A stretch of 64,000 nt of DNA from Alphaproteobacteria bacterium (GTDB lineage Bacteria; Pseudomonadota; Alphaproteobacteria; Micropepsales; Micropepsaceae): assembly GCA_017308475.1 (NCBI GenBank), contig JAFKEU010000005.1:186001-250000 (forward strand), read 5' to 3'. A program made the position numbers and the translations under genes. This document shows, one piece after another, positions 29,093 through 56,725 of this stretch. Position 1 is the first letter of the stretch, and each line of letters starts with the position of its first letter. A model generated the notes under the pieces. The model made no database searches. It saw only the letters and a list, made by a program, of their open reading frames with translations, and was not told the origin of the DNA.

Positions 29093-29122
29093 ACCCCACA
29101 TTGTCAGTCGAGGTAAGGAAAA

Positions 29123-32350: not shown

Positions 32351-32367
32351 GCAAGGTGTCGGATGAT

Positions 32368-33606: not shown

Positions 33607-33674
33607 CGCAGACTGGCCCAGGCGCCGATCCAGACCTTGGCACAGCAGGCGGCCTAAGACCTCTCACGACGCGC

Positions 33675-33706: not shown

Positions 33707-33724
33707 ACGGCCGGAGACAACGGA

Positions 33725-34144: not shown

Positions 34145-34147
34145 TCC

Positions 34148-35103: not shown

Positions 35104-35115
35104 CAAGCTGGCATC

Positions 35116-35508: not shown

Positions 35509-35518
35509 GGAAAATTCC

Positions 35519-35800: not shown

Positions 35801-35935
35801 GTGCAAAGCCACAACTCGGGACGACGACATGATCACGCAGCGCGTTTCTGCGTCCGTGCTGTTGAGATGGCAGGCCCAGCGCTGAGACCGATCCGACTTT
35901 AGGTATCACTCGGTACGGCGCGTCGGAGTCTGCCT

Positions 35936-36871: not shown

Positions 36872-37095
36872 GGCTGGTTAGCGCCCCGGCGTGCTTTGGC
36901 GAAGACTCGGTCGGTGGCCATGAACCGCTCGATCATCGGCACGATGAGCTTTGCCGGATCGATCACGGCCTGCCCGGTCGCCCGACCCAGCACCTCGGCA
37001 TAGGCGACCAGATCGCGATGCACCGCGGCCGGCAGCTCGAGGCTGACCTTGACCGGCTTGTTGTCAGCGAGCGGTCCGAGCTTCAACTTGGTCAT
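36835..37095 (-). CDS. DUF2274 protein
   Basis: The 86-residue product (MTKLKLGPLADNKPVKVSLE) belongs to DUF2274, small proteins almost always found right after trbI in trb-type elements. The N-terminal strand followed by helices suggests a ribbon-helix-helix-like fold. Its ATG overlaps the trbI stop by 4 bases. Role in transfer is unproven. Confidence 0.8.
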   Translation of the reverse strand: MTKLKLGPLADNKPVKVSLELPAAVHRDLVAYAEVLGRATGQAVIDPAKLIVPMIERFMATDRVFAKARRGANQPQPGTGSAERSG

Positions 37096-40062: not shown

Positions 40063-41420
40063 TCTCCTCCCGAGAGATCGACGGAATGGCCGCCGCCATG
40101 GCTGTCGCCGGATCTGAGGGCGTTTGCGGCGGCCGTCGCGCCGTGATGAATGGCTTGGTTGCGCCGCATGCGCTGGGCCCAGGCCGGCGGCCCGCCATCG
40201 GTCGCGCCCGTGCCTGCCGGGCTGGCGGCGGCGCTTTGGCCCCCGGCTACTGTGCCCTGGGTCGAGGAGCCGCCAGTGGCGGCGAAGCTGGATTTTGCGC
40301 CGGCCGCAAAGCTCTGCTTCACGGAACCGGCGGCCTGGCTGGCGGCGCGCCGGAAGGGGGCGGCCGCACTTGCGGCTGCGGCCCGCCCAACCCCGCCAAG
40401 GCCCGCGGCGACTCCCGACGCGCCGGATCGACCGGCCGAGGCGAGGCTGTAGGCCGAGGACGCCCCACCTGCCATCGCAGCGCCGCCCCGCACCGCCGCC
40501 GCCGAGCCGGAAGCCGCCGCCATCGCTCCCCTCCCGGCCAAGCCGAGCGCGCCAGCGCCGGCCATCGCCGTGCCGGCAACGGCAAGGCCGGTCCCGACGG
40601 CCGCACCCGCGCCGAGCTGCGGCGCGCCCGAGACCAAGCCGGTTGCGATGCCAGGACCGAAGATGCCGAGGCCAAGAAGCGCGAGTGCGGCGAGCACGAC
40701 AGAGAGCGCCTGCTCGACGGTCGGCTGGCCGCCGGCGTAGGTCTGAGTGAACTGCGAGAACAGGCCCGAGCCGATGCCGACGATGACGGCGAGCACCATC
40801 ACCTTGACGCCGGAGGCCACGATGTTGCCGAGCACCTTTTCGGCGAGGAAAGCCGTCTTGTTGAACAGCGCGAAGGGAATGAGGATGAAGCCGGCGAGCG
40901 TGGTCAGCTTGAACTCGATCAGCGTGACGAAGAGCTGCACCGCCAAAATAAAGAAGGCGATCAGCACCAGGAGCCAGGACACCATCAGCACGGCGATCTG
41001 GACGAAATTGGCGAAGAAGCTGGTGAAGCCCATCATCTGGCTCGCCGCATCGAGCAGCGGCTGGGCGGCATCCAGGCCGGTCTGGGCAAGCCGGCCGGGC
41101 CGCAGGAAATCGGCGGTCGAGATCGAGGAGCCGCCCGCCTTGAGGCCGATGCCGGCGAAGCTGTTGAAGACGATCGCCGAGAGATTGTTGAAGTTGGTGA
41201 TGATGAAGGCGAAGAAGCCGATGTAGAGGGTCTTCTTCACCAAGCGCTGGAGAATGTCCTCGTCAGCGCCCCAGGCCCAGAACAAGCCCGCCAGCGTGAT
41301 GTCGATGACGATAAGGGTCGAGGAGAGGTATCCGACCTCGCCCTTGATCAGACCGAAACCGGAATCGATGTAGGTCGTGAAGGTGTTGAGGAAGGTGTCG
41401 ATGACGCCGACATTGTTCAT
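40059..41420 (-). CDS. trbL: Conjugal transfer protein TrbL (VirB6-like)
   Basis: TrbL is the polytopic inner-membrane channel component. The 453-residue product has about six hydrophobic helices in residues 25-260, then a long Ala/Gly/Ser-rich low-complexity region and a hydrophilic tail (SDGG-type, ending HSVDLSGGE). This two-part form is usual for the family. Confidence 0.93.
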   Translation of the reverse strand: MNNVGVIDTFLNTFTTYIDSGFGLIKGEVGYLSSTLIVIDITLAGLFWAWGADEDILQRLVKKTLYIGFFAFIITNFNNLSAIVFNSFAGIGLKAGGSSISTADFLRPGRLAQTGLDAAQPLLDAASQMMGFTSFFANFVQIAVLMVSWLLVLIAFFILAVQLFVTLIEFKLTTLAGFILIPFALFNKTAFLAEKVLGNIVASGVKVMVLAVIVGIGSGLFSQFTQTYAGGQPTVEQALSVVLAALALLGLGIFGPGIATGLVSGAPQLGAGAAVGTGLAVAGTAMAGAGALGLAGRGAMAAASGSAAAVRGGAAMAGGASSAYSLASAGRSGASGVAAGLGGVGRAAAASAAAPFRRAASQAAGSVKQSFAAGAKSSFAATGGSSTQGTVAGGQSAAASPAGTGATDGGPPAWAQRMRRNQAIHHGATAAANALRSGDSHGGGHSVDLSGGE

Positions 41421-41743
41421 CGCGTTTCTCCCGCGGCATTGGTGGCCGGCGCCGCCGCGCCCGGGGGCATTTGAGGCAGCGGCCGCGCCGGCCGGCCGAA
41501 GAAGCGCCGACGGTTCTCCTCCCAGACCGCCAAACAGCGCGCGTCCTCGGCGTCCTGCGGACCGAGCGCGCTACAGCGGCGCAGCTCGGCCGAGAGGTCA
41601 TCGGATGCTGGGCTTGGGACGGTCGAAGGCGTCTCGATGATCGGCGGCGCGGGCCGCAGATGAATCGCGACCAGGCTCACGACCACGACGGCGATCAACG
41701 CGATGATCGCGACGACGCGGAAGGTGTCCGACCTGCCCAGCAT
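41417..41743 (-). CDS. TrbK-alt putative entry-exclusion protein
   Basis: The 108-residue product has one N-terminal membrane helix (VVAIIALIAVVVVSLVAIHL) and a soluble domain with paired Cys (RRCSALGPQDAEDARCLAVW) and a Pro-rich tail, the form annotated as TrbK-alt in such operons. It would block redundant transfer into cells already carrying the element. It sits between trbJ and trbL. Confidence 0.85.
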   Translation of the reverse strand: MLGRSDTFRVVAIIALIAVVVVSLVAIHLRPAPPIIETPSTVPSPASDDLSAELRRCSALGPQDAEDARCLAVWEENRRRFFGRPARPLPQMPPGAAAPATNAAGETR

Positions 41744-41752
41744 CGCGGCGCC

Positions 41753-42490
41753 TCAATTGCCGCTGAACATGGTGACGTTGCCCGGCACGTAGCCGGTGCG
41801 CGTCGAGAAGGTCTTGTATTGCTGCTGGCCCTGCGCCTCGGCCGAGGCGGTGCGCGCTTGCTCGAGCGCGTCTGCCCGGCTCTTGGCAGCCAGCACAGCG
41901 ACCAGGTCGGAGAGCTGCTGCGATTGGAGCGCCAGAAGCTGATTACCGGCCTGCGCGGCTTGCAGCGCGCCGGTGGCGCTCTGGCTGGCGGTGACCAGCG
42001 AGGTCATGGCGCTGGAGTTGGTTGGAATGTTGCCGACGACGCCGGCCTGGATCTTCAGGCTATCCTCGAAGGCAGCGACGGAGTTCTGCCACCGGGTCTG
42101 CGCGTTCGCCACCATCGTAGCGGTCGAGCCGGTGCCTGCCGCCGCCCCGTAGCTCGTCGAATAGGCAGTCTGGATTCCCTGGACGTTGAAGGAAATATTC
42201 TGCGCCTGGCTGAGCAGCGACTGGGTTTGGGCGATCGACGACTGGAGCTGGGTCAGCGTCGACATCGGCAGGTTCGCGAGATTGCGCGCTTGATTGATCA
42301 GGCTCGTGGCCTGGTTGTTCAGCATCGTGATCTGGTTGGTAATCTGCTGCAGCTCGCGCGCGGCGGTCAGGACGTTCTGGCTGAAGTTGGTCGGGTCGTA
42401 GACGATCCACTGTGCCGAGGCGGGTGGCGCGGCGACGGCCAGAGTGAGCACGACGGCGCTCGCCGTCGCCAGATGGCGCAGCTTGATCAT
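41753..42490 (-). CDS. trbJ: Conjugal transfer protein TrbJ (VirB5-like)
   Basis: The 245-residue product has a signal peptide (ATASAVVLTLAVAAPPASAQ) and a long helical body with Gln/Asn-rich coiled coil (LQQITNQITMLNNQATSLIN), typical of VirB5/TrbJ pilus-tip proteins. Its start overlaps the trbE stop by 4 bases. Confidence 0.92.
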   Translation of the reverse strand: MIKLRHLATASAVVLTLAVAAPPASAQWIVYDPTNFSQNVLTAARELQQITNQITMLNNQATSLINQARNLANLPMSTLTQLQSSIAQTQSLLSQAQNISFNVQGIQTAYSTSYGAAAGTGSTATMVANAQTRWQNSVAAFEDSLKIQAGVVGNIPTNSSAMTSLVTASQSATGALQAAQAGNQLLALQSQQLSDLVAVLAAKSRADALEQARTASAEAQGQQQYKTFSTRTGYVPGNVTMFSGN

Positions 42491-44925
42491 GATGACGTCT
42501 CCAGGTTGGTCAGGTCAGGGATGAGATCGGCGGCCCACTGAAGCTCGCGGTCAGCGAGCCAGGTCGGCGTGAAGGCCTCGCGGCCATGTTCGGCGACGAC
42601 CCGTTCGATCGCCGCGTGATCGGCCTTGGACGATGCCGCGCAGAAGGCGAGCGCGACGGGACCGAGGCCGAGCTCGAACAGCCGGTTGCCGCGCCGGGAC
42701 TGGCAGTAGTAGTCGCGCTTCGGCGTGGCGCGCGCGAGGATCTCGATCTGCCGGTCATTTAAACCGAACCGGCGATAGATCGTCGTGATCTGCGGCTCGA
42801 TCGCCCGCTCGTTCGGCAAGAAGATGCGCGTCGGGCAGCTCTCGACGATCGCCGGCGCAATGTTGCTGCCGTCGATGTCGGAGAGCGATTGGGTGGCGAA
42901 GACCACAGACGCGTTCTTTTTCCGAAGCGTCTTCAGCCACTCGCGCAATTGCTGCGCGAAGGCCGGATCGTCGAGGACCAGCCAGCCTTCGTCGATGATC
43001 AACAAGGTAGGGCGGCCGTCCAGGCGGCCCTCGATGCGGTGGAAGAGGTAAGTCAGCACGGCGGGCGCCGCGCCGGCGCCGATGAGGCCCTCTGTCTCGA
43101 AGGCCTGTACGGGCGCGGAGCCGAGTTGCTCGGTCTCGGCATCCAGCAGCCGTCCCGAAGGACCGCCGACGCAATAGGGTTGAAGCGCCTGCTTCAGCGC
43201 TGTCGATTGGAGCAGGACGGCCAAGCCCGTGATGGTGCGCTCGCCCACCGGCGAGGAGGCCAGCGAGTTCAGAGCCGACCAGACATGCTCCTTTGCGGTC
43301 GGATCGATGACGACGCCTTCCTTGGCGAGGATCGCCGCCACCCACTCCGCCGCCCAGGCGCGCTCGGCGTGGTCATCGATCCGCGCGAGCGGTTGCAGGG
43401 AGACGGAATGCTCCGACCCCGCTGACAGACTGCCGCCGAGATCGTGCCAGTCGCCGCCCATGGCGAGCGCGGCGGTGCGGATCGAGCCGCCGAAATCGAA
43501 AGCGAAAATCTGATTGTCGCGGTAGCGGCGGAACTGCATCGCCATCAGCGACAGCAGGACCGACTTGCCAGCTCCGGTCGGACCTACGATGAGCGTGTGG
43601 CCGACGTCTCCGACATGAAGGCTCAGGCGGAACGGCGTCGAGCCTTCGGTCTTGCCGAACAGCAGCGGCGGCGCTTTGAAATGCTCATCGCGCGCCGGCC
43701 CGGCCCAGACCGCCGAGAGCGGGATCATGTGCGCGAGGTTCAGAGTCGAGACGGGAGGCTGCCGGACGTTCGCATAAGCGTGGCCGGGGATCGAGCCGAG
43801 CCAGGCCTCCAGCGCGTTCACCCCTTCCGGCATGCAGGTGAAGTCGCGGCCCTGGATCACCTTCTCGACAAGGCGAAGCTTCTCGGAGGCGAGCCCGGCG
43901 TCCTCGTCCCATACGGTGACGGTGGCGGTGACGTAGGCCTGGCCGACATCGTCGGTGCCCAACTCCTGCAGCGCCATGTCCGCGTCGGCGGCCTTGTTGG
44001 CGGCGTCGCTATCGACCAGCGTCGACGCTTCGTTGGTCATCACCTCCTTGACGATCGCGGCGATCGACTTGCGTTTGGCGAACCACTGCCGCCGGATCTT
44101 GGTCAGCAGCTTCACCGCCTCGGTTTTGTCGAGCAGGACCGCGCGGGTGGACCAGCGATACGGGAAGGCGAGCCGGTTCAGCTCGTCGAGGATGCCGGGA
44201 TGCGTGGCGGTCGGGAAACCAACGACGGTCAGCGTCCGCAGGTGATGCGCGCCGAGTCTCGGCTCCAGCCCGCCGGCGAGCGGCTCGTCGGCGAGGAGCG
44301 CATCCAGGTGCATCGGCGTCTCGGGCACGCGCACGCGCTGCGCCCTCGTCGAGATGGTCGAGTGAAGGTAAGTCAGCGTTTCGCCGTCATCGAGCCAGCC
44401 AACCTCGGGCATGAAGCCCTCGACCAGTTGCAGCACGCGGTTGGTGCGATCGACGAAGCCGCGCAGCAGCTCCCACGGATCGACGCCGCTCTGGGTGCGA
44501 CCCTCATAGAGCCAGCTCTCGATGCGCGAGGCGTCTTCCGCGGGCGGCAGCCAGACGAAGGTCAGGAAGTAGCGGCTCTCGAAATGCGCGCCCGCTTCCT
44601 CGAAGGCGTCCTGCCGTTCGAGGTCGACCAGCGCCGACGCTGGATCGGAAAAGCTCGAGTGCGGATAGGTCTGCGCGGCGATCCGCTGCGCCTCGACGAA
44701 GATCGCCCAGCCGGAGCCGAGACGGCGCAACGCATTGTTCAGGCGTGACGTGACGGCGACCAGCTCTGCGGGCGTGGCGCTGTCGAGGTCCGGCCCACGA
44801 AAGCGCGCTGTGCGCTGGAACGACCCATCCTTGTTGAGCACGATGCCGTCTTCGACCAGGGCGGCCCAGGGCAGGAAATCCGCGAGACCGGCGGGGCGGC
44901 TGCGATATTCTGCGAGGTTCAGCAT
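42487..44925 (-). CDS. trbE: Conjugal transfer ATPase TrbE (VirB4-like)
   Basis: TrbE powers pilus and channel assembly. The 812-residue product has a CagE/TrbE N-terminal domain, Walker A (VGPTGAGKSVLLSL) near residue 447, Walker B (LLIIDEGWLVLDD) near residue 640, and the C-terminal FATQSLSDI motif. It is complete and of normal length. Confidence 0.96.
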   Translation of the reverse strand: MLNLAEYRSRPAGLADFLPWAALVEDGIVLNKDGSFQRTARFRGPDLDSATPAELVAVTSRLNNALRRLGSGWAIFVEAQRIAAQTYPHSSFSDPASALVDLERQDAFEEAGAHFESRYFLTFVWLPPAEDASRIESWLYEGRTQSGVDPWELLRGFVDRTNRVLQLVEGFMPEVGWLDDGETLTYLHSTISTRAQRVRVPETPMHLDALLADEPLAGGLEPRLGAHHLRTLTVVGFPTATHPGILDELNRLAFPYRWSTRAVLLDKTEAVKLLTKIRRQWFAKRKSIAAIVKEVMTNEASTLVDSDAANKAADADMALQELGTDDVGQAYVTATVTVWDEDAGLASEKLRLVEKVIQGRDFTCMPEGVNALEAWLGSIPGHAYANVRQPPVSTLNLAHMIPLSAVWAGPARDEHFKAPPLLFGKTEGSTPFRLSLHVGDVGHTLIVGPTGAGKSVLLSLMAMQFRRYRDNQIFAFDFGGSIRTAALAMGGDWHDLGGSLSAGSEHSVSLQPLARIDDHAERAWAAEWVAAILAKEGVVIDPTAKEHVWSALNSLASSPVGERTITGLAVLLQSTALKQALQPYCVGGPSGRLLDAETEQLGSAPVQAFETEGLIGAGAAPAVLTYLFHRIEGRLDGRPTLLIIDEGWLVLDDPAFAQQLREWLKTLRKKNASVVFATQSLSDIDGSNIAPAIVESCPTRIFLPNERAIEPQITTIYRRFGLNDRQIEILARATPKRDYYCQSRRGNRLFELGLGPVALAFCAASSKADHAAIERVVAEHGREAFTPTWLADRELQWAADLIPDLTNLETSS

Positions 44926-44932
44926 TTCGGCC

Positions 44933-45208
44933 TCACACCCCCAGATGTGCGGGATAGCGGAGGTGGCGGCGCACCACGTCCACGAAGAGCGGATCGCGCT
45001 TGGCGGCCCACACGGCGGCCGCGTGCCCGACGGCCCAGAGCATCGCGCCGGGTATCCAGAGCCGCAGGCCGAGTGCGATCGCCGCCGCGATCGTGCCGTT
45101 GGCGATCGCCACCGTCCGCGGCGCTCCGCCCATCAGGATGGGATCGGTGAGAGCGCGGTGAACGGGCGCGAAGAAGCCGGGTACATCGGGATCGACGATC
45201 GCGGCCAT
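44933..45208 (-). CDS. trbD: Conjugal transfer protein TrbD (VirB3-like)
   Basis: The 91-residue inner-membrane protein (MAAIVDPDVPGFFAPVHRAL) has the VirB3 start (PVHRALTDPILMGGAPR) and two hydrophobic helices. A longer upstream frame is rejected because it runs through trbC; the ATG at 45208 shares one base with the trbC stop. Confidence 0.93.
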   Translation of the reverse strand: MAAIVDPDVPGFFAPVHRALTDPILMGGAPRTVAIANGTIAAAIALGLRLWIPGAMLWAVGHAAAVWAAKRDPLFVDVVRRHLRYPAHLGV

Positions 45209-45549
45209 CAGACCAGCGCCCCGCCCGAGAAGCTGAAGAAGGTCAGGAAGAAGCTCGACGCGGCGAAGGCGATCGACAGCCCGAAGACGATCTGGATCAA
45301 CCGGCGGAAGCCGCCCGAGGTGTCGCCGAAGGCGAGGGTCAGGCCCGTCACCGTGATGATGATGACGGAGATGATCTTGGCGACGGGACCCTGAACCGAC
45401 TCCAGGATGGAGTTGAGCGGCGTCTCCCACGGCATGGAGGAGCCGGAGGCGTAGGCCGCAGGAGCGAAGGCCAGCGAGAGCGCGGCGATGGTGACGACGT
45501 CGAGGGCGCGCCGGTGCAGACGGCGAGCGGTGGCGAGAACGCGGATCAT
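45208..45549 (-). CDS. trbC: Conjugal transfer pilin TrbC (VirB2-like)
   Basis: The 113-residue product has a long signal region (DVVTIAALSLAFAPAAYASG), a short mature N-terminus and two hydrophobic helices (KIISVIIITVTGLTLAFG; IVFGLSIAFAASSFFLTFF), the layout of VirB2/TrbC pilins. It overlaps trbB by 4 bases. Confidence 0.92.
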   Translation of the reverse strand: MIRVLATARRLHRRALDVVTIAALSLAFAPAAYASGSSMPWETPLNSILESVQGPVAKIISVIIITVTGLTLAFGDTSGGFRRLIQIVFGLSIAFAASSFFLTFFSFSGGALV

Positions 45550-46535
45550 GAGATGTCTCCGGGATCGCCGCCCGCCTCGGCGGGTTGGACGCGGTAATCA
45601 CCGGTGGCGGGATCGAGCCCGGCGACGAGAGCGAGTTCGGAGAGGCGGCGTTCGCCGCCGCGGCCGCGCAGCACCGCGACGAGATCGATGGTCTCGGCGA
45701 GCAGCGCCTTGGGGACGGTGACGACGGCTTCCTGGATGAGCTGCTCGAGGCGGCGCAGCGCGCCGAGCGACGTCCCGGCGTGGATCGTCCCGATGCCGCC
45801 CGGGTGGCCGGTGCCCCAGGCCTTCAGCAGATCGAGCGCTTCGGCGCCGCGCACCTCACCAATGGGAATGCGATCGGGCCGCAGGCGCAGAGAAGAGCGG
45901 ACGAGGTCGCTAAGCGAGGCGACCCCATCTTTGGTGCGCATCGCCACCAGGTTCGGCGCGCGGCATTGCAGCTCGCGCGTGTCCTCGATCAGGACGACGC
46001 GATCGCTGGTGCCTGCGATCTCGGCCAGAAGCGCGTTGGTGAGGGTGGTCTTGCCAGTGCCGGTGCCCCCGGCAACGAGGATGTTCTTTCGCGAGGCAAC
46101 GGCCTCGCGCAGCAGGACCGCTTGCGCGGCCGTCATGATTCCAGCGGCGACGTAATCGTCGAGCGTAAAGACGGCCACGGCGGGCTTGCGGATCGCGAAA
46201 GCTGGCGCGGTGACCACGGGGGGCAACAGCCCCTCGAACCGCTCCCCCGTTTCAGGCAACTCGGCGGAAACCCGTGGACGCTCCGCGTGGACCTCGGCGC
46301 CGACATGGTGCGCGACCAGGCGCACGATCCGCTCGCCGTCGACGGCGGACATAGTCCGGCCGGTGTCCTCCAAGCCTCCCGAAAGCCGGTCGATCCAGAG
46401 CCGACCGTCGGGATTGAGCATCACCTCGACGATCGCCGGGTCTTCGAGGAACGCGGCGATGGCCGGGCCGAGGGCGGTGCGCAGCATGCGCGCGCCGCGT
46501 GAGAAGGCCTCGGAATGGAGTGGTGCAGCCGCCAC
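45546..46535 (-). CDS. trbB: Conjugal transfer ATPase TrbB (VirB11-like)
   Basis: TrbB is the hexameric traffic ATPase. The 329-residue product has the N-terminal [14 protein letters not shown], Walker A ([14 protein letters not shown]) near residue 157, the Asp box ([14 protein letters not shown]), Walker B region ([19 protein letters not shown]) and His box (GGIGTIHAG). The start is GTG at 46535 with GGGGA upstream. It leads the trb operon. Confidence 0.95.
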
Positions 46536-46553
46536 GATCGTCCCCGTAAAAGG

Positions 46554-46616
46554 CCAACCGCGAAACGCGATTGGCGACGGGGATGATTAGAAGAGGCAGT
46601 AAATAGGGCGGTTCAA
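46554..46616 (-). promoter_or_regulatory. trb operon leader: promoter-like pair and hairpin
   Basis: On the minus strand TTGAAC (46611-46616) and TTCTAA (46587-46592) are 18 bases apart. They are followed by a 9-bp stem CCAATCGCG/CGCGGTTGG with a TTT loop (46554-46574, one G-T pair) just before the trbB start. The hairpin could modulate translation of trbB. The rest of the 202-base gap shows no gene. Confidence 0.4.
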
Positions 46617-46737
46617 CAAGTATTCAGTCATCGTAGGGAGCCAGCGTAGAGCAGAGAAAAAAGACTTGCTGGGTGCGGCGGACCTTTTCGGGTCCCGCTT
46701 TCTTCCGTCACTTCACTTAATGATTTTGACGCGGAGA

Positions 46738-47184
46738 TTACGACTCGGAGGAGCCGCTGGCGGAGCGCTCCGAGACGTCGTCCGGAATCTCCTGCCGAAG
46801 CTTCGGCCCCTCATTGAGGCGCCGGCCCAGTGTGGCAATGAAGTTGTCATAACGCGCGCCCGCCTGAGCACGGGCGGCCTTGGCGGCCGGCTCAGGGAGC
46901 GGTGGCGTGGTGTTCAGCCAGAAGCGTATGAACAAGGCGAGGGTCTCGACGCCGATCGAGACGTCGCGCTCGAGCCGCGCCAAACGCCGGTCCTGCTGGT
47001 CGAGCCGCTTGGCGATTGCCGCTTCGCGCCGCTCGTCGGCATCGGGCGACAAGAACGATGCGATCGCCGCTTCGGCGACGAGCGACATCGACTGCTCGCG
47101 GCGCGCCGCATAGGCGGACAGCGCCGTCATGACATCGGGGTCGAGATAGACCGAGACCTGGGCCTTCTTCTTCGGCGGGGTCAT
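46738..47184 (-). CDS. CopG-like ribbon-helix-helix protein
   Basis: The 148-residue product has an N-terminal RHH domain (KAQVSVYLDPDVMTALSAYA), then a coiled-coil region (RREAAIAKRLDQQDRRLARL) and a C-terminal helical part. Genes of this type sit between traG and trbB in many elements and probably regulate transfer or help the relaxosome. I prefer the ATG at 47184 over a GTG at 47190. Confidence 0.82.
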   Translation of the reverse strand: MTPPKKKAQVSVYLDPDVMTALSAYAARREQSMSLVAEAAIASFLSPDADERREAAIAKRLDQQDRRLARLERDVSIGVETLALFIRFWLNTTPPLPEPAAKAARAQAGARYDNFIATLGRRLNEGPKLRQEIPDDVSERSASGSSES

Positions 47185-47191
47185 ACGCACC

Positions 47192-49219
47192 TCACAGGCC
47201 GAGGTCGTCGCCCGGGTCGAGCGAGGCCTGCTGCGCGAGGCCTCGCATCAGGTCGTTCATCCGACCGATCCGGGGCGCGTCCTCCTCAAGCTCGTCGGCC
47301 GGATCGAGCGCGAACTCGTTCTCGATCGGCTCCTTCTTCTCGACGGTGTCCTGGCTTAGCTCCGGCTGGCGGCGGCGATCCGCATTCTTCGGATCTTCAT
47401 CGTCAGCGTCTTCCCCATCGCGCGACACAGGCGCCGGCGGGCGCGGCGGAAGCGGACGGGCGCTCCAGTCATCGGGCCGGCCCTCTTTCGGCCGGGCCAG
47501 CGTGGGCGGCGGGATGATGCGCTCCTGGAAGCGCGCGTCCTCGTAGTAGCGCGCCTTCTGCGCGCGGATCGGATGCAGCCCCGAGACCATGACGATCTCG
47601 TCGGCGGGCGGGAGCTGCATGATTTCGCCGGGCGTCAGCAGCGGCCGCGCGGTTTCCGAGCGCGAGACCATCAGGTGGCCGAGCCAGGGCGACAACCGGC
47701 TGCCGGCATAGTTCTTCATCGCCTTCATCTCGGTCGCGGTGCCGAGGGCGTCGCTTACCCGCTTAGCGGTTCGCTCGTCGTTGGTCGCGAAGCTGACGCG
47801 CACATGGCAGTTATCGAGGATCGAGTTGTTGGGGCCATAGGCCCTCTCGATCTGGTTCAGCGACTGGGCGATGAGGAAGCTCTTGATCCCGTAGCCCGCC
47901 ATGAAGGCGAGCGCAGACTCGAAGAAGTCTAGCCGGCCAAGCGCCGGGAACTCGTCCAGCATCAGGAGAAGCCGGCGGCGCCCCGCCTTGGCCAGCAGGT
48001 CCTCGGTCAAGCGCCGCCCGATCTGATTGAGGATCAGCCGGATCAGCGGCTTGGTCCGATTGATGTCCGAGGGCGGTACGACGAGGTAGAGCGTCGTCGG
48101 CCGATCGCCGGCGACGATGTCGCCGATCCGCCAGTCGCATCGCCGCGTCACCTCGGCCACCACAGGATCGCGATACAGCCCGAGAAACGACATGGCCGTG
48201 CTGAGGACACCGGAGCGCTCGTTGCCGGACTTGTTCAAAAGCTCGCGGGCAGCCGACGCAACGACGGGATGGACGCCGGCCTCGCCGAGGTGGGCGGTCT
48301 TCATCATCGCCGCCAAGGTGGACTCGATTGGCCGCTTGGGGTCGGACAGAAAGGCGGCGACGCCGGCGAGTGTCTTGTCCTCCTCGGCGTAGAGGACGTG
48401 CAGGATGGCGCCGACCAAAAGCGCGTGGCTCGTCTTTTCCCAGTGATTGCGCTTTTCCAGGCTGCCTTCGGGATCGACCAGAATGTCGGCAATGTTCTGA
48501 ACGTCGCGCACTTCCCATTCGCCGCGCCGGACCTCGAGCAGCGGATTGTAGGCCGACGACTTCGCGTTGGTCGGATCGAACAGCAGGACGCGACCGTGCT
48601 GCGCCCGAAAGCCGGCGGTGAGCTGCCAGTTCTCGCCCTTGATGTCGTGGACGATCGCCGAGCCCGGCCAGGTGAGAAGCGACGGAATAACCAGGCCGAC
48701 GCCCTTGCCGCTTCGGGTCGGAGCGAAACACAGCACATGCTCGGGGCCGTCGTGGCGAAGATAGCTGCGCTGGTGGCGGCCTAGCACCACGCCGTCCGGA
48801 CCCAGCAGCCCGGCCTGCTCGATCTCCTTCGGCTGCGCCCATCGCGCGGAGCCGTAGGTCTCGGCGTTCTTCGCTTCGCGCGCCCGCCAGACCGACATGC
48901 CGATCGCCACGGCCGCGGCGATGAGGCCGCCCGACGCGGCGATGTAGGCGCCCTCGATGAAGATCGACGGCGCATAGGCGTCGTAGGCGTACCACCACCA
49001 GAAGAAGGCCGGCGGCAGATAGAAGGGAAAATGCAGCAACTCGAACCACGGCCGCCCCAGCTCCGGCTGGAAGCCAAGGCGGCAGGCGGTCCATTCCGTC
49101 GCCGTCCAGGTCGCCAGCAAGACGATGCCGAAGACGGTGATGACCTGGCCCCAGAGGATCTTGGTCGCGGACACGGCGGACGTCCTTTCTTGAAGTCGTT
49201 GATGGGTGGGGTCGTTCAA
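47192..49219 (-). CDS. traG: Type IV coupling protein TraG (VirD4-like)
   Basis: TraG links the relaxosome to the secretion channel. The 675-residue product has N-terminal membrane helices, Walker A (APTRSGKGVGLVIPSLL) near residue 170, Walker B (LLLMLDEFPALGRLD) near residue 420, and the SFLIAQSLNQIERAYG segment. The acidic tail (PADELEEDAPRIG) is typical. It overlaps the relaxase gene by 4 bases. Confidence 0.95.
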   Translation of the reverse strand: MNDPTHQRLQERTSAVSATKILWGQVITVFGIVLLATWTATEWTACRLGFQPELGRPWFELLHFPFYLPPAFFWWWYAYDAYAPSIFIEGAYIAASGGLIAAAVAIGMSVWRAREAKNAETYGSARWAQPKEIEQAGLLGPDGVVLGRHQRSYLRHDGPEHVLCFAPTRSGKGVGLVIPSLLTWPGSAIVHDIKGENWQLTAGFRAQHGRVLLFDPTNAKSSAYNPLLEVRRGEWEVRDVQNIADILVDPEGSLEKRNHWEKTSHALLVGAILHVLYAEEDKTLAGVAAFLSDPKRPIESTLAAMMKTAHLGEAGVHPVVASAARELLNKSGNERSGVLSTAMSFLGLYRDPVVAEVTRRCDWRIGDIVAGDRPTTLYLVVPPSDINRTKPLIRLILNQIGRRLTEDLLAKAGRRRLLLMLDEFPALGRLDFFESALAFMAGYGIKSFLIAQSLNQIERAYGPNNSILDNCHVRVSFATNDERTAKRVSDALGTATEMKAMKNYAGSRLSPWLGHLMVSRSETARPLLTPGEIMQLPPADEIVMVSGLHPIRAQKARYYEDARFQERIIPPPTLARPKEGRPDDWSARPLPPRPPAPVSRDGEDADDEDPKNADRRRQPELSQDTVEKKEPIENEFALDPADELEEDAPRIGRMNDLMRGLAQQASLDPGDDLGL

Positions 49220-50955
49220 AGGCCGAGCCCCCGATTGCGCCCGAAACCCCAGTCGATGCCGCCGTCGCTGCGCGTGACGCCGGAGACGTGGCGGCCGAGC
49301 TGCTTCTCCAGCGAGGGCGTCCAGGGCACGAGTTGGAATCCAAGGCCGTCGTCGATCATGGCGAAGCGGCCGGAGGCGAGCGCGAAGCGCTGCCGATAGG
49401 CGCCGGCGACATACTCGCCCGCTGCGCCGCGATTGAACGGCTGCCCAGTGTCGGCCGCGAGCTGCTCGCCCAGGGCTTCGACCTCCCGGCGCCGAAGCGT
49501 TCCGATCAGACCCTGGGAGAAGACGATGCCGCGCGCCTGTCGTTCGGCGAGGCCCTGCTCGACGAGCTGCTCTGCCCGCCGCTCCATCGCGTCGCGGACT
49601 TCGGCGCCGAATCCGGCTTGGCCGAGCGCCACAGGGTCGCGGGCGACCGCCTGTCGATCGAGCCAGGTCGCACCGCTGGCCGTCACCTGGTGCTCGATCG
49701 AGAGATCGGACCGCACAGCGAGCGCGACGCGCCGCCGCCCTTGCGCGTCGTCGAACTTGCGCAGCTCGACTATCGAGCCCGGGGCGCTGTCCCCGGCCGC
49801 GTCGAGGTCGGGGAATTTGATGTGATGGGTGCGGCCGTCGACACCGTCGACCACGGCATAGGCCGTGCCTTTCAGCTCGTCATCGAGACCGCGATCTACG
49901 AGCCGGCCGATGACCGGGACTTCGAGGCTCTCGCCAGCGAGGACGAAGCTTGCGGTCGCGCGCTCGATGCCGCGTTCGGTCAGGCCGCGATGGATGCGCT
50001 TGATGATGTCGCCGCGCTCGCCGAGTTCGCGCAGCGTCGTCTCGGCGGCCTCGTCCATGGTCCACTGGCCTGCCCCAATCTGGTGAGCGAGCCCGAGGTT
50101 CTCGAGATGGCGCAGCCGTCCAACCTTGAGGCTATGAAACTCGTCGGGCTGTTGTCCGGGGACGGTGGCCAGATCGATGACGCCATGCCGATCGGCATCG
50201 CGAAGCAGTTGTCGATCGAGCTGAGTCCAGCGCTCGGCCTGCACCTGGCGCTCGAGTGCGTGACGGATGTCGATATCGCTGCGCAGCCCCAGCTCTTGCG
50301 TGACCAGATCCTGGGCGCGGGCACGCATTCCCTCTTTGATGTAATCGCGTGAGATGACGAGGTCCTGGCCATCCTCGGCGACGCCCCGCACGATGATGTG
50401 GACGTGCGGGTGCTGCGTGTTCCAGTGATCGACGGCCACCCAGTCGAGCTTGGTGCCGAGATCCTTCTCCATCTGGCCGACCAGCTCGCGGGTGTAACCT
50501 TGGAGATTGGCCATCTCCGGCGCGTCCTCGGGCGAGACGATGAAACGGAAATGGTGGCGGTCCCCCTCGCACCGTTCGGCGAAAGCCTTCGGATCGGCGT
50601 CGTCGGTGTCGGGGCCGAACAGCCGCGCCTTCTCCCCGTCGCGGGTGACGCCCTCGCGCCGGAGGTAGCTGAGATGGGCGCCGAGCGGCGCGGACCGGGC
50701 GGTATGCCGGACCACCCGTGTCTTGACCGTCACCAGTCGGAAGCGGCCGGTCAGCAGGCGGTTCGCCTGGACGCTGGCAACGCGGCCGCGGCCGAAGGTC
50801 GAGCGGCTCTTGCTCCTCAGGAGGCCCTGCCGCGAGATGCCGCCCCCGGCACGTTGAGCGGCCGCGAGCGCCTGGGCGATGAACGGCTTCGCACGCTGAC
50901 TGCGGGAAGAGCGGATGCGGCCTGGCCGGGGATGGAAGTCGTTCTCCTCAGCCAT
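49216..50955 (-). CDS. Relaxase/mobilization nuclease, DUF3363 type
   Basis: The relaxase nicks oriT and pilots the strand. The 579-residue product has a basic N-terminus, a candidate catalytic Tyr in AHLSYLRREGV (near residue 84), the RHHFRFIVSPEDA motif, and the metal-binding HPHVHIIVRG (HxH) near residue 185, followed by the DUF3363 region. I choose the ATG at 50955 (MAEENDFHPRPGR). The region upstream is the likely oriT. Confidence 0.92.
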   Translation of the reverse strand: MAEENDFHPRPGRIRSSRSQRAKPFIAQALAAAQRAGGGISRQGLLRSKSRSTFGRGRVASVQANRLLTGRFRLVTVKTRVVRHTARSAPLGAHLSYLRREGVTRDGEKARLFGPDTDDADPKAFAERCEGDRHHFRFIVSPEDAPEMANLQGYTRELVGQMEKDLGTKLDWVAVDHWNTQHPHVHIIVRGVAEDGQDLVISRDYIKEGMRARAQDLVTQELGLRSDIDIRHALERQVQAERWTQLDRQLLRDADRHGVIDLATVPGQQPDEFHSLKVGRLRHLENLGLAHQIGAGQWTMDEAAETTLRELGERGDIIKRIHRGLTERGIERATASFVLAGESLEVPVIGRLVDRGLDDELKGTAYAVVDGVDGRTHHIKFPDLDAAGDSAPGSIVELRKFDDAQGRRRVALAVRSDLSIEHQVTASGATWLDRQAVARDPVALGQAGFGAEVRDAMERRAEQLVEQGLAERQARGIVFSQGLIGTLRRREVEALGEQLAADTGQPFNRGAAGEYVAGAYRQRFALASGRFAMIDDGLGFQLVPWTPSLEKQLGRHVSGVTRSDGGIDWGFGRNRGLGL

Positions 50956-51309
50956 GGCCGGCCCCGGCAATGTGCGGAAAAGGCAGTTCCAGCAAGGGTT
51001 TGAAGCGCGCGCGCACATTTCGGGCGGAGGCCGCACATTGCCGGATCAACGAATAAACCAAGCAAAAACAACCGACCGACCGAGCCGCACCCTGCGGCCT
51101 TTTATCTGGCCCTCGGTCGGTTGGTTTCTGCACTCCTCCCCTGTCCGCCCTTCCTTCTTCCCGGAGGCACGCCAGGGTGCGCCTGCCTGCGAAGTCGTGC
51201 CCCGTAGCTGGGATGTAGCCCTTTGAGCCGCCGGAGGCCGCCGAGCCGACAGGGAAAGCGCGAGCCGGCCGAGGCGATGTAGCGGCACATAGACGGGAGA
51301 ATGGTGCGG
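50956..51309. other. Probable oriT region upstream of the relaxase
   Basis: This 354-base gap contains no gene. Its main feature is an inverted repeat with 10-bp arms ACCGACCGAG (51075-51084) and CTCGGTCGGT (51112-51121), enclosing two small hairpins (CCGC-accct-GCGG; GGCC-ttttatct-GGCC). CACCCTGC inside resembles the CCTG|C core of IncP-type nick sites. Location upstream of the relaxase is usual for oriT. Confidence 0.5.
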
Positions 51310-52401: not shown

Positions 52402-52947
52402 TCAATCGGTGGCGGCGCGCCACACGAAGCGGCCGTCGCCGGTCTCGTCGGTCCACAGCGGGACCGCGCGGGCGACGATCGCGGTGGTGGGAAGCGGGCC
52501 GAAATAGCGCCCGTCCAGGCTGTCCGGGACGGTCGGGTTCATGAGGAAGACTTCGCTGGGGCCGAGGGTGTGGCAGCCGCTCCAGCGCGGCAGCGGACGG
52601 CCGAGGTGATCGCGTTCACGCGCCTCGCCGACGCCGATGTGATCGACGGTGATTGCGTCGCCTGCGCGGCAAACCGTCTGCCCTGGCAGCGCCATCACAT
52701 GCTTCAGCAGCGGCACGCCCTTGGGCAGGAAGCCGCCATCAGCGAGGTAGCTGGCGATCGGTTCGGGCGCGCGCACGGCGACCAGTTCGAGCGCGTGGAG
52801 CTGTCCGGCCGGACGGAGCGCATAGAGCCCAGTCGGTGTGCTCGCCGTGGCGTTCCAGATCAGGCGCGGCGCCGGATGGACGAAGGCCAAGCCGATGAAG
52901 ACAAGCATGGCGAAATACGTCGTCATGACGCAGCCGAAGCGGGTCAT
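52402..52947 (-). CDS. traF: Conjugative transfer signal peptidase TraF
   Basis: TraF is an S26-type peptidase that matures or cyclises the TrbC pilin. The 181-residue product has an N-terminal membrane helix, the catalytic Ser region NATASTPTGLYALRP, the Lys region GVPLLKHVMALPGQTV, and NPTVPDSLDGRYFGPLP. It overlaps the DUF2840 gene by 4 bases. Confidence 0.93.
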   Translation of the reverse strand: MTRFGCVMTTYFAMLVFIGLAFVHPAPRLIWNATASTPTGLYALRPAGQLHALELVAVRAPEPIASYLADGGFLPKGVPLLKHVMALPGQTVCRAGDAITVDHIGVGEARERDHLGRPLPRWSGCHTLGPSEVFLMNPTVPDSLDGRYFGPLPTTAIVARAVPLWTDETGDGRFVWRAATD

Positions 52948-53462
52948 AGCGTGACGCTCCTGCGCTTGAGCCAGGCGGCGTGCTGATCGCGCGTGTAGGG
53001 GCGCGGCTCATGGCCGGCGGCGAGACGGTTGTGGAGGTGGCGCCAGTATTCCGGTGCGGCGTCGACGGGATCGATGTCGAGCGCCTCAACGGCGTCGATC
53101 GCCTGCAGCACGCGCTCGACCTTCGGCCAGTTATCGACGCGCAGCAGGATTTCGCCGCCAGGCCGCACGAAGGGGAGCGTCTGATAGCGAGCGCCGGCCT
53201 CGACGGCGCGCACAATGTCCAAGCGTGAGACGACGGTCCCGAAGTCGTTCGACGCCCAGCGGACGAATGCGAAGATGCTGTTCGGTTTGAAGCTGGAGAG
53301 GCTGCGGCGGCGATCGAGGATCTTCTCCTCGGCGCGGCGTCCGAAGCGGAGCCAATGTTCGATCTTCTTCTCGATCCAGGTCAGCTCGACATGGGTAAGC
53401 GCGATGGTCCGCCTGTGTGACGGTGGCACGACGCGCGGCAATGCCGGTTCGTTGTCGTTCAT
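52944..53462 (-). CDS. DUF2840 protein
   Basis: The 172-residue product (LTHVELTWIEKKIEHWLRFG, VRWASNDFGTVVSRLDIVRA) is DUF2840, found beside traF in this element family. No catalytic motif is evident. Four-base overlaps on both sides place it in one operon with parA, the RHH gene and traF. Confidence 0.82.
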   Translation of the reverse strand: MNDNEPALPRVVPPSHRRTIALTHVELTWIEKKIEHWLRFGRRAEEKILDRRRSLSSFKPNSIFAFVRWASNDFGTVVSRLDIVRAVEAGARYQTLPFVRPGGEILLRVDNWPKVERVLQAIDAVEALDIDPVDAAPEYWRHLHNRLAAGHEPRPYTRDQHAAWLKRRSVTL

Positions 53463-53713
53463 GAGGGCTCTCCGGGATCGGCGGGGAATTCGCGCGCGAG
53501 AAGGTCGCGCAGCATGTCGGCGACGGTGATCCCGCGCTGGAAAGCGGCGACCTTGATGCGGCCGCGCAGCGCCGGCGTGACGTCGATCGTCAGGCGCGCG
53601 GTGAAGGCGGAGCGCTCGTCGCCGCCACGGCTTGGCGGTTCGGGCGCCTTGATCCAGCTCTCGGCGTCACCGGGCCGGGCGGCGAAGCCGCGTCGGGCGC
53701 CACCCGCGCTCAT
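53459..53713 (-). CDS. RHH partition partner protein
   Basis: The 84-residue product has a disordered N-terminus and a C-terminal ribbon-helix-helix-like domain (ARLTIDVTPALRGRIKVAAF). Overlap with parA suggests it is the centromere-binding partner of ParA, like ParG, although it might only regulate the operon. Confidence 0.72.
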   Translation of the reverse strand: MSAGGARRGFAARPGDAESWIKAPEPPSRGGDERSAFTARLTIDVTPALRGRIKVAAFQRGITVADMLRDLLAREFPADPGEPS

Positions 53714-54348
53714 GGCGCGAGCCTCGCGACTTCAGCGGCGAGCGCTGCGATCTCGCGCGCCGCGGCGCTCTGCTCAGCCAGCTCGAACACGAGGCGGCCG
53801 GACTGTGCGGCGTCGGCAAAAACGACACGCTGGCCGATGGTGCTGGAGAGCACCGGCGGATCGTGGTCGGCCAAGGTCTCGGCTGTTTCGCGGGCGATGA
53901 CGGTGCGCGCGCCGCAGCGGTTCAGCACGAAGCGCGCGGCAAGCTGAGGGCGATAGATGCGGGCCTCGCGGAGCAAACCCAGCATCTCGGCCGAGGCCCA
54001 GCCATCGAAGGGCGACGGTTGCACCGGGATCAGTACGAGATCGGCGGCGAGCAGCGCCGAGCGCATGAGTCCCGCGACGCGCGGTGGACCATCGATCACG
54101 ACATGATCGGCGGTGCGCGCGATCTCCGGCGCTTCGCGGTGGAGCGTGTCGCGCGCGAGGCCAACGACGCCGAACAGTCGTGAGACATTCTCCCGCGCCC
54201 TTTGCTGCGACCAATCGAGCGCCGAGCCCTGCGGGTCGGCATCGATAAGCGTTACGCGCTTGCCGTGCAGCGCCAGCTCGCCGGCGAGATGCAGCGCAAG
54301 CGTGGTCTTGCCGACGCCGCCCTTCTGATTGAGGAGAGCGACGATCAT
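53710..54348 (-). CDS. parA: ParA partition ATPase
   Basis: The 212-residue ParA/MinD-type ATPase has the deviant Walker A (LLNQKGGVGKTTLALHLAG) at the N-terminus, the DADPQGSALDW motif and VVIDGPP. It lacks an N-terminal DNA-binding domain (type Ib-like size). It overlaps repA and the RHH gene. Confidence 0.92.
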   Translation of the reverse strand: MIVALLNQKGGVGKTTLALHLAGELALHGKRVTLIDADPQGSALDWSQQRARENVSRLFGVVGLARDTLHREAPEIARTADHVVIDGPPRVAGLMRSALLAADLVLIPVQPSPFDGWASAEMLGLLREARIYRPQLAARFVLNRCGARTVIARETAETLADHDPPVLSSTIGQRVVFADAAQSGRLVFELAEQSAAAREIAALAAEVARLAP

Positions 54349-55460
54349 CGCTTCCCTCCCGGCTTGCGGCTGAAGGGCAGCGACGGCTGTCGTGCCGGCT
54401 GTCTGGAGGTCGGCGCAGCGGGAGTGCCGTGCTTATCCGCAGATCGCGCGCCCCAACTACAAGAGTTAGATTCTGAGTTAGACTCTAAGTTAAGGCCCGG
54501 AATCGCCGTTTCCGGCCAGAGCGTTAGCTGCGGTTCGTGCGTGCGAAGTCCCGATAGGACTGCGTGCGGAATCCCGATACCGTTTGCGTGCGAAGTCCCG
54601 AGCGCTTCCACAGCGCCATCCACAGGGACTGTGGATAAGTGGGCCGGCAGGATTCGCAGCAGCTCTCGGCGGCCCTGCCACTCGATGCGCAGGCGATAGC
54701 CGGGCAGCGGCTGGCGCGCGGCGATGCGCCGGATCTGCAGCGCGAAATCCGAGACGCGCACCAGGCTGCCGGACTTCTCGTGGAGATGCGCGATCTCGAA
54801 CAGCCAGCCTTTGGGCTGGCGACCTGCGTGTTTGCGCGCGACGCGATAGAGCCAGCGCTCGATGCCGCCGGTCAGCCGGAAATAAGCGGGGTCGATCGCC
54901 AGGACGAGCGAGCGGTCGATGACGCCGCGGTAGAACCAGTCGGGGAGAACGAACTCCATGCCCTCGACGCGGCCGTCGCGCGTCGTGCATTCCTCCCACT
55001 CGTTGATCCACGAGAACTGGTGACGGCGCCAATGTTCGCCGTTGCGGATGGTGGTGCGGATGACGGTCGATTGCAGGCGGGCGAGCGCGCCCTTCAGCAG
55101 CTTGTAGTCGCGGGCCCCGGTCTGCCGACCGATTGCGGTCAGGAGCTGGTAGGGCGTGAAGCGCAAGAAGCGCGAAGTCTTGAAACCGAGGTTCTCGGCC
55201 TCGACGATCTGGCTCGCCGCCCAGATCAGCACGTCGGCGTCCCAAATGGTCGCCATGCCATGTTGGGGCACGGCGTAGACCTCGACTCGAACGCCGGCGG
55301 ATTCGTAGAGGATCGGCGCCGTGCGCCTCGTCTTTGCGAGCGAGAAGAACGGCCGCTCCATCAGGTCGCGCTGATCGCGCGGGCTGGCGTCGCCGGTGGC
55401 GACGATGAACGGATCGAGCTTGCTCCGTTCGCTGGCAGTGATGAGGCGGCGCGCCGACAT
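54345..55460 (-). CDS. repA: Replication initiator protein RepA (RPA family)
   Basis: The 371-residue product (MSARRLITASERSKLDPFIV) matches replication initiator protein A: ERPFFSLAKTRRTAPILYES, then DVLIWAASQIVEAENLG and WLFEIAHLHEKSGSLVRVSD. Its C-terminal 100 or so residues are low in conserved motifs and their DNA carries an origin-like array. The ATG at 55460 is chosen; an in-frame start at 55538 would overlap the HTH gene. Confidence 0.92.
   Translation of the reverse strand: MSARRLITASERSKLDPFIVATGDASPRDQRDLMERPFFSLAKTRRTAPILYESAGVRVEVYAVPQHGMATIWDADVLIWAASQIVEAENLGFKTSRFLRFTPYQLLTAIGRQTGARDYKLLKGALARLQSTVIRTTIRNGEHWRRHQFSWINEWEECTTRDGRVEGMEFVLPDWFYRGVIDRSLVLAIDPAYFRLTGGIERWLYRVARKHAGRQPKGWLFEIAHLHEKSGSLVRVSDFALQIRRIAARQPLPGYRLRIEWQGRRELLRILPAHLSTVPVDGAVEALGTSHANGIGIPHAVLSGLRTHEPQLTLWPETAIPGLNLESNSESNSCSWGARSADKHGTPAAPTSRQPARQPSLPFSRKPGGKR
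54463..54638. other. Candidate oriV inside the 3' end of repA
   Basis: On the plus strand there are: AT-rich 12-mers GAGTTAGATTCT and GAGTTAGACTCT (54463-54486) plus a partial third; three direct repeats GCGTGCGAAGTCCCGA starting at 54539, 54562 (with two changes) and 54586 (spacing 23 and 24); and a perfect DnaA box TGTGGATAA (54630-54638) within the palindrome ATCCACA-gggac-TGTGGAT. This is the classic iteron origin layout. Confidence 0.7.
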
Positions 55461-55474
55461 CGAAGAGCCCCGCT

Positions 55475-55726
55475 TCAGCGATGCGCGTGGCCGGCGGCGC
55501 GGGCCTCGACGTATCGAGGATCGGACGTCGAGCTGCATGCGGCCTGGTCGGCCCAGGCTTCGAGGTCGTCGATCGCGTAGACGACGCGCCCGCCGAGCTT
55601 GCGGAAGGTCGGGCCGCTGCCGTGGCAGCGGTATTTCTCCAGCGTCCGCGGTGAGATGCCGAGGATGCGCGCCGCCTCATGGGTGCGGACGTAACGCGTG
55701 GCGAGTTGCGCGGCCCTGTCGGGCAT
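55475..55726 (-). CDS. AlpA/excisionase-like helix-turn-helix protein
   Basis: The 83-residue product has a MerR-like HTH (VRTHEAARILGISPRTLEKY) and the LGGRVVYAIDDLEAW ending typical of small HTH_17 proteins on plasmids and integrative elements. It lies just upstream of repA and may regulate it or act in excision. The 212 bases upstream (55,727-55,938) show no gene. Confidence 0.82.
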   Translation of the reverse strand: MPDRAAQLATRYVRTHEAARILGISPRTLEKYRCHGSGPTFRKLGGRVVYAIDDLEAWADQAACSSTSDPRYVEARAAGHAHR

Positions 55727-55938: not shown

Positions 55939-56500
55939 TCAGAGACCGCGCAGGAGCTTCAGATAGCCTCTTTCGACGAGGGCGATCGAATCGTGGATCA
56001 GGCGGTTGGCTTTGCGGCGCGCGTGGGAATCCTTCCACTCGACAGAGGGAAGCTGGGCGTGGTCGGAGCTGAGTACTTCCGCCGCGATGTCGCGCGGGCC
56101 ACCGCCGGCATCGTGAACGTCGAAGGCGTGGAGGAGTTGGATCAGTCGCCGCTTCTGGAAAGATGTGAGCCGCAGGGCGGTCGGGAGAAAGTTGAGGCGC
56201 TGCCCGCTAAGGCGGCGGGCGAAGCGTAGCGCGACGTCGAGTCGAAGCTCGAACATGCCGTCGAGCGGCAGAAGCACGGCGGGGCGTCGCGTGGCTCGGT
56301 CGTCTTGCAAGCGGATATGGAGTTCGTCCGAGCCGTCGACGATCACCAGTTCGCGTCCATCGGCGTCCGCGCGCTCGATGAGCGCCGGACCGAAGGCGCT
56401 GGGATTGAAGGATGAAGCGGCCTCGAACCCGGTTGGCGCCGGTTCCAGGATCAGCGTGGCCGGCGAAACTTCCGGCAGCCACATGACGGGTTCGAGTCCG
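55939..56500 (-). CDS. DUF2285 protein, likely frameshifted N-terminus
   Basis: The C-terminal DUF2285 domain is clear (KRRLIQLLHAFDVHDAGGGP, EWKDSHARRKANRLIHDSIA, ending RGYLKLLRGL). The preceding part (LEPVMWLPEVSPATLILEPA) fits the central region of fused DUF6499-DUF2285 proteins. The same frame is open to 56658, but that N-terminus lies out of frame over the DUF6499 gene. A +1 shift near 56,527 would join both into one protein. Confidence 0.7.
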
Positions 56501-56515
56501 ACTGGAGACGCGGGA

Positions 56516-56725
56516 TCATGGGCGAAAACGCAACCCCCATCGCCGAGCCAGACTGACGCGGGCAGTCTCGGCGTCGACGGAAGCGCGCGCGATCCGGCGC
56601 TGGGTCCGGACGAAGTCGCGGCGGTAATCAGGGTTGCGGCGCAAAAATTCGGCGGCAAAGCCGGGACGTTCGAGGCGGTTCAGGCGATCAATCGTCTCCG
56701 GCGAGCGCCAGTACTCCGTGGGCAT
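56516..56725 (-). CDS. DUF6499-like N-terminal domain protein
   Basis: The 69-residue product (MPTEYWRSPETIDRLNRLER, then FAAEFLRRNPDYRRDF, ending LARRWGLRFRP) matches the small transcriptional-regulator-like domain that precedes DUF2285. It stops just where the DUF2285 frame takes over. Either two coupled genes or a single frameshifted gene. Confidence 0.75.
   Translation of the reverse strand: MPTEYWRSPETIDRLNRLERPGFAAEFLRRNPDYRRDFVRTQRRIARASVDAETARVSLARRWGLRFRP

Follow-up and report, generated by a model that had tools for sequence, protein, structure and literature searches.

The stretch of DNA analysed here, the window, comprises 64,000 nucleotides of an Alphaproteobacteria bacterium of the Micropepsaceae (contig JAFKEU010000005.1, positions 186,001 to 250,000). 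It carries repA, a replication initiator gene on the minus strand, within an integrative and conjugative element (ICE). Judged from its sequence, the 3′ end of repA is very probably the iteron-type vegetative origin (oriV) of the ICE, placed inside the element's own initiator gene. The features concerned are as follows.

54345-55538, minus strand: repA, replication initiator, an open reading frame of 397 amino acids (open reading frame list and Pfam RPA)
54690-55379, minus strand: RPA domain, two winged helices (Pfam PF10134, residues 54-283)
54606-54638, minus strand: DnaA-box cluster (box, inverted repeat and third core)
54618-54636: inverted repeat ATCCACAG-GGA-CTGTGGAT
54606-54613: further (third) DnaA core TTCCACAG
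54585-54601, minus strand: iteron 1, TCGGGACTTCGCACGCA
54561-54577, minus strand: iteron 2, TCGGGATTCCGCACGCA, in the same reading frame as iteron 1
54538-54554, minus strand: iteron 3, TCGGGACTTCGCACGCA, in a different reading frame
54516-54530, minus strand: QLTLW, codons 337-341, a probable sliding-clamp-binding motif between the iterons and the AT repeats
54463-54495, minus strand: AT-rich 12-bp repeats, TAACTYAGARTC in the repA direction, a probable unwinding element

From alignment, the likely start of repA is MSARRL at position 55460. The match to Pfam RPA scores 280 bits against a cut-off of 27 and ends at residue 283; the repeats are therefore encoded beyond the domain, in a C-terminal tail. 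The original prediction had placed origin elements in the 3′ end of repA; these are present, and their reading as an origin is supported by the analysis below. In gene direction the order is the one claimed, with DnaA boxes followed by three iterons, a 13-codon spacer, the AT-rich 12-mers and the end of repA. The two full 12-mers (GAGTTAGATTCT, 54463-54474; GAGTTAGACTCT, 54475-54486) and the partial one (AAGTTAAGG, 54487-54495) lie exactly where predicted and form the most AT-rich 36-nucleotide stretch of repA (0.69, compared to a mean of 0.34). The perfect DnaA box, TGTGGATAA, is at 54630-54638 and overlaps the inverted repeat. The iterons likewise have the predicted places and spacing (24 and 23 bp in the repA direction), although the middle copy, described as equal to the others, differs from them at 2 of 17 positions. 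When synonymous codons were redrawn with the protein fixed, none of 2000 draws attained the three-copy score of 47/51, the highest being 39, and none of 5000 produced a perfect DnaA box. Allowing at most one mismatch, the iteron occurs at three sites in the 3.45-Mb genome sequence, all in the 3′ end of repA.

Homologous loci were searched for with six patterns. One of these, HEPQLTLW, is located in the tail and contains the clamp-type motif, so that the 80 loci obtained with the six patterns are biased towards tailed genes and the motif; two further searches used short, tail-less RepAs. Dropping L007, L008, L009 and L011 first left 88 loci. The codon alignment holds 81, including the window (L001), after removal of L002, L003 and L004 as copies of L016, L030 and L021, and of L005, L006, L010 and L012. 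All three iterons are present, ungapped and with the 24/23 spacing, in 81/81 of these loci. Conservation at synonymous sites, the check proposed with the original prediction, places the repeats and DnaA boxes far above the flanking codons. This was measured in 22 near loci, window included, with the expectation taken from the same residues in the RPA domain over 20000 codon sets. Synonymous identity is 0.991 for the iteron codons (0.717 expected), 0.954 for the DnaA region (0.735 expected) and 0.958 for the AT repeats (0.746 expected), each value being reached in 0/20000 codon sets. The spacer between iterons and AT repeats is at baseline (0.742, 0.737 expected), and the segment past the AT repeats lies slightly above expectation (0.819 compared to 0.755; 1091/20000). 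Wherever these residues occur, Leu338 is encoded by CTA or TTA and Glu343 by GAA, which may reflect DNA-level constraint on part of the spacer too.

The iterons also change in concert. Within a locus, 15.5-15.9 of 17 positions agree between copies, compared to 13.5-13.8 when copies are shuffled among loci (0/5000; 47 distinct triplets, relatedness ignored). Copy 3 is in the other frame yet co-changes with copies 1 and 2, and selection on the protein cannot explain such joint change.

A survey of repeat triplets extended these observations to a wider set of loci. In total 160 loci were searched and 157 scored; 139 passed a repeat threshold of 36/45 with a stop codon, giving 126 distinct domains. 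The 18 failures include the kindred loci L010 (75% to the nearest query), L155 (69%) and L161 (76%, with no stop codon in its available sequence), while the other 15 are below 45%. L010 has a similar layout with clear copies of two repeats only, and is possibly a decaying origin. The 24/23 spacing is found in 118 of the 126 domains. The triplet is intragenic in 98 domains and lies outside the gene in 28. Intragenic origins have a DnaA core upstream in 93/98 and at least two TAAC downstream in 97/98; at least two TAAC also lie downstream in 24/28 of the intergenic relatives. On Sphingobium pCHQ1 (L100), a Citrobacter plasmid (L103) and L012, which share the same backbone, RepA stops a few codons past the domain, and three iterons of another sequence (TCGTGCTATCRGGGACC and similar) and then TAAC-rich repeats precede the partition gene parA.

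The best tree contains four changes between the inside and outside states, three of them forced by well-supported branches. In each of the five most distant rows the triplet is outside the gene. Two of these rows, L125 and L130, were chosen as the root, and a warning about long branches meeting was issued for this tree; the direction from outside to inside is therefore one that we infer. With this rooting, the origin would be the older fixture, probably predating its coding role, and the end of the gene would have crossed it more than once. L125 and L130 (35% and 30% identity to the nearest query) carry three identical 15-bp repeats with 21/21 spacing after the stop codon, so some RPA lineages may have had a 3′ origin for a long time.

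These data also bear on the possibility that the repeats are simply a peptide repeat conserved for the protein. Tail residues such as S316, S329 and G330 are invariant in an alignment of 37, which favors such a role, but copy 3 changes with copies 1 and 2 in another frame, the synonymous sites are frozen, and the intergenic relatives keep such repeats untranslated. A peptide repeat as the only role is hardly credible and was rejected on these three grounds.

In the 5′ half of each iteron, TCGGGA precedes either CT or GA; the 3′ half is CACGCA or of the GGCG type. Among the 81 aligned loci the halves combine as CT+CA in 32, CT+GG in 42, GA+CA in 5 and GA+GG in 2. Two residues of RepA follow the two halves. 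Residue 268 is Q in 37/37 loci with a CA-type 3′ half and D in 44/44 with a GG-type, while residue 143 is R in 74/74 CT-type and S in 7/7 GA-type loci. Seven long-branch rows were dropped from the wider set for this comparison, leaving 119. Here Q268 tracks the CA-type 3′ half in 119/119 rows, the others having D or E, and iterons with GGAA pair with E268, L146 with its D being the one exception. Residue 268 and the 3′ half each change nine times on the tree; the next-best residue for this half is 260, near 268, which reaches 0.94. S143 tracks the GA-type 5′ half in 117/119 rows, both exceptions being H.

Structural modeling positions both residues in predicted recognition helices. A model of residues 27-298 (52 sequences) shows two winged helices, with a predicted local distance difference test score (pLDDT) of 88 and a predicted template modeling score (pTM) of 0.87. 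Its fold resembles those of RctB (Z 17.5), of a Rep protein on an origin single strand (8ac8; Z 14.0) and of DNA-bound RepE54 (Z about 13), with 11-14% identity to RepE and RctB in the structural alignments. A sequence search of the PDB with RepA returned three ribosomal proteins alone, at E 0.38 or worse. Residue 143 starts helix 142-157 and residue 268 is inside helix 262-275, in each case the third helix of a winged helix. Iteron initiators whose two winged helices contact different parts of the iteron have been described (PMC4980987). The co-variation with residues of predicted recognition helices supports a putative binding of the iterons by RepA. A first full-length model (37 sequences) was poor (pLDDT 54), with low confidence for residues 301-397; the tail is probably unstructured.

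The gene after repA raises a second alternative for the repeats. The two genes concerned are these.

53710-54348, minus strand: parA, partition ATPase (NF041546, 278 bits, cut-off 180), overlapping the repA stop codon by 4 bases
52944-53462, minus strand: DUF2840 gene, ICE backbone (profile match)

Repeats often mark partition sites, and parA directly follows repA, as would suit a parS-like centromere serving the adjacent ParA in place of an origin. However, the repeats are kept where there is no room for parA. In L101 the DUF2840 gene overlaps the end of repA, in L098 it lies 61 bp past that end, and in L005 the gap after repA, with the repeats, leads to what is by eye a DUF2840-like sequence. 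The repeat sequence moreover tracks residues of RepA, and the AT repeats are part of the layout. We consider a centromere very unlikely as the explanation, and it was rejected as the sole role of the repeats on the ground that they occur without parA.

The spacer between the iterons and the AT repeats encodes QLTLW. Clamp-binding peptides follow a consensus pentapeptide of the QL[SD]LF type. Among the 39 RepAs outside the window clade, 30 have QLDLF, QLELF or a close form near the N terminus, nine do not, and none of the 39 has a match in the tail. Within the window clade, all of whose 87 members are intragenic, the N-terminal motif is found in 0/87, with mostly K/R-L-D-P-F at that place. Instead, 80 of the 87 carry the motif in the tail, within the spacer that separates iterons from AT repeats, 77 as QL[TSN]LW, one as QPTLW and two ending in S or C. 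The remaining seven, not matched by the search expression, are L003 and L018 (QLMLW), L032 (ELTLW), L114 (QLSLE), and L044, L049 and L053, which have nothing comparable. Among the clade members found without the tail pattern (L096, L097, L098, L111, L114, L115 and L160) the motif is present in 6/7. In 78 distinct tails, position 340 is Leu in 75/75 and position 342 Pro in 72/75, each using four codons, a sign of protein-level selection. Shuffling the first 75 residues of the window tail produced the motif in 2/20000 cases. Together, these patterns suggest that the RepA tail probably carries a functional peptide. For TrfA of RK2, the clamp-binding motif is required for replisome assembly (PMC4980987). 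Relocation of the motif is not a requirement for read-through: eleven RepAs outside the clade read through the origin yet lack a tail motif, and ten of these retain the motif at the N terminus. The shift is one event on the tree, and is thus not a repeated correlation.

The element that hosts repA is an ICE of about 58 kb at a tRNA-Arg gene, within a 633-kb contig and with trb-type transfer. The integrative element that the original prediction had proposed is borne out by attachment (att) repeats in tRNA-Arg and by a tyrosine integrase.

23754-23799, plus strand: attL-side repeat, the 3′ part of tRNA-Arg(ccg) (tRNA gene 23722-23798)
37092-51036, minus strand: conjugation genes for TrbI, CagX, TrbL, a TraG P-loop protein and a relaxase (profile matches)
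45546-46535 and 47192-49219, minus strand: TrbB-like and TraG-like open reading frames, respectively, named by eye from the open reading frame list

The partner att copy is found beyond the window, at 82010-82055 in window numbering, next to the PF00589 tyrosine integrase (L094:16471-17934). The two repeats align over 46 bp with 3 mismatches by eye and share 15 exact bases by script. The relaxase scores 589 bits against the RlxS model, below the cut-off of 850, so its subgroup is not fixed. About 30 bases at 23410-23439, roughly 310 bp upstream of the tRNA gene, are identical to the 5′ part of tRNA-Arg and are perhaps an old integration scar. The interval 25946-36871 encodes a Pyr_redox_2 protein, a P-type ATPase with a heavy-metal domain, an MFS transporter, a DsbD-type protein and a LysR regulator, and is likely metal-related cargo. 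Likely defence cargo occupies L094:4367-16058, between backbone and integrase, with an MmeI-like restriction-modification protein, DEAD helicases, and T5orf172 and HATPase proteins. At 55939-56658, DUF7012 and RovC_DNA-bd (PF10074, which we take to be the former DUF2285) are fused in one open reading frame, unlike in L096, where DUF6499 and DUF2285 are annotated as separate overlapping genes. FseA-type regulators of Mesorhizobium ICEs are produced by frameshift.

We infer the following course of binding, melting, clamp contact and replication. After excision of the ICE, RepA monomers would bind the three iterons, the first winged helix on the 5′ half and the second on the 3′ half. Host DnaA would bind the inverted boxes, and the TAAC-containing AT repeats would melt. 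The RepA tail could then present QLTLW to the sliding clamp, aiding replisome loading, and ParA would partition the excised circle. In evolution, the origin may first have lain between repA and the next gene, with some lineages then reading repA through it; in the window clade the clamp-type motif would have moved from the N terminus to the new tail. A more far-reaching reading, which we advance tentatively and hold to be slightly on the doubtful side, is an interleaved module. DNA-read blocks would alternate with the protein-read QLTLW, read-through would have moved the clamp motif, and a code at residues 143 and 268 would re-specify three sites and set ICE incompatibility.

Several observations weigh against an origin of this kind or against parts of the mechanism. 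At 23-24 bp, the iterons are not spaced by exactly two helical turns. Just 10/28 intergenic relatives have a DnaA core upstream of the iterons, compared to 93/98 for the intragenic origins, so the DnaA part is weaker or elsewhere in that group. For residue 268, only 3 of 9 independent pairs sit on well-supported branches and a sign test cannot reach 0.05; the link is strong, not phylogenetically final. Residue 143 changed about 3 times; of its two supported pairs, one agrees and the other shows no difference. Because the GA type appeared only a few times, residues 131 (0.975), 223 (0.966) and 120 (0.958) classify the 5′ half nearly as well. The last residue of QLTLW is W instead of F; ImuB QLPLWG has W at the last motif place (PMC10421592). 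Sphingobium pPDL2 resembles the window in its RPA-domain RepA (also Rep-3), iterons, AT-rich sequence, DnaA box and integrating element, but its origin is upstream of repA in a working mini-replicon (PMC3516476), and a 3′ origin is thus not general for RPA proteins. All identified Mesorhizobium ICESyms are reported to be without this initiator (PMC8627217), which is therefore dispensable for ICE life.

Plasmids add to this counter-evidence. A plasmid with no replicon but this one would be natural proof of the origin; in the search for such a case, most carriers had repABC, RepC, Rep3 or IncC. Another replicon is present in 6 of 8 plasmid records carrying the module, five found by search and the sixth by typing. 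RepC is above cut-off on pMLb and the A. vitis plasmid, and Rep3 on the K. vulgare, pCHQ1 and Indioceanicola plasmids, where for Indioceanicola the hit falls on another RPA gene. Typing assigns the Citrobacter plasmid to IncC. The 82-kb Bradyrhizobium plasmid p184_2 has repABC. These carriers provide no natural case of the module replicating alone. The other two records, W03 and W04, showed no other initiator above cut-off in these searches. The W04 record is linear, at 17.9 kb, and W03, searched for these families only, is typed IncP plus rep_cluster_1115, so neither supports a conclusion. Both the company of other replicons and the ICESyms that live without the initiator (PMC8627217) would suit a RepA that binds here for self-regulation or incompatibility only, with the ICE never initiating at this site. 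We regard this as improbable: RepA retains its clamp-type motif, and no exact half-iteron was found in the 641 bp upstream of repA.

The repA 3′ end can be compared with known systems. Like RepA, the initiators RepE (plasmid F) and RctB (Vibrio chromosome 2) have two winged helices, and RepE recognises iterons; their origins are not known to lie inside the initiator gene. The origin of phage lambda lies inside gene O, with iterons and an AT-rich region in the initiator coding sequence, but the initiator is unrelated and the replication is that of a phage. ICEs are usually described as passively copied with the chromosome, and a specific, conserved origin in mobile elements of alpha- and gammaproteobacteria suggests a plasmid phase for many of them. 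With the proposed two-residue code, initiator-iteron recognition could be tested directly by exchanging a single residue together with three short sites. The alternation of DNA- and protein-constrained blocks is a natural case of coding sequence laid over a regulatory site, and both states survive in relatives.

Tn4371-type and Mesorhizobium ICEs are similar in gene order, with the initiator adjoining partition and DUF2840 genes as here, and the RepA of pMLb (L101, examined here) is named as kin of this module (PMC2789088, PMC8627217). The excerpts of PMC2789088 mention neither oriV nor iteron, and those of PMC8627217 do not mention oriV. The latter paper reports that Mesorhizobium ICEs without symbiosis genes carry the initiator at this place, and suggests that such transfer clusters alternate between ICE and plasmid life. 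This intragenic RPA origin, its residue code and the motif shift were not found described in the full-text literature searched, a search that mostly excluded subscription journals. Plasmid pSN1216-29 has iterons, DnaA boxes and an AT-rich region, and its minimal replicon was shown in E. coli, but its iterons are downstream of repA (PMC6232296). In IncU plasmid RA3, oriV was mapped experimentally to the 3′ end of repB and the adjacent AT-rich region; unlike here, one partial repeat lies within the gene and large repeat blocks outside, and DnaA is unmentioned in the excerpted text (PMC9455977). The repABC plasmid p42d has its oriV inside the initiator gene repC, where silent mutations abolished replication, but by the abstract of that study it has no iterons or DnaA boxes, and its initiator is RepC, not RPA (PMC3155836). 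Origins inside initiator genes are therefore already known from RA3 and repABC, and the probable intragenic RPA origin adds a variant. Beyond the original prediction, the comparison of sequences adds the intergenic iterons at the same place in relatives, the co-variation of RepA and iterons at two residues and the clamp-type motif in the tail.
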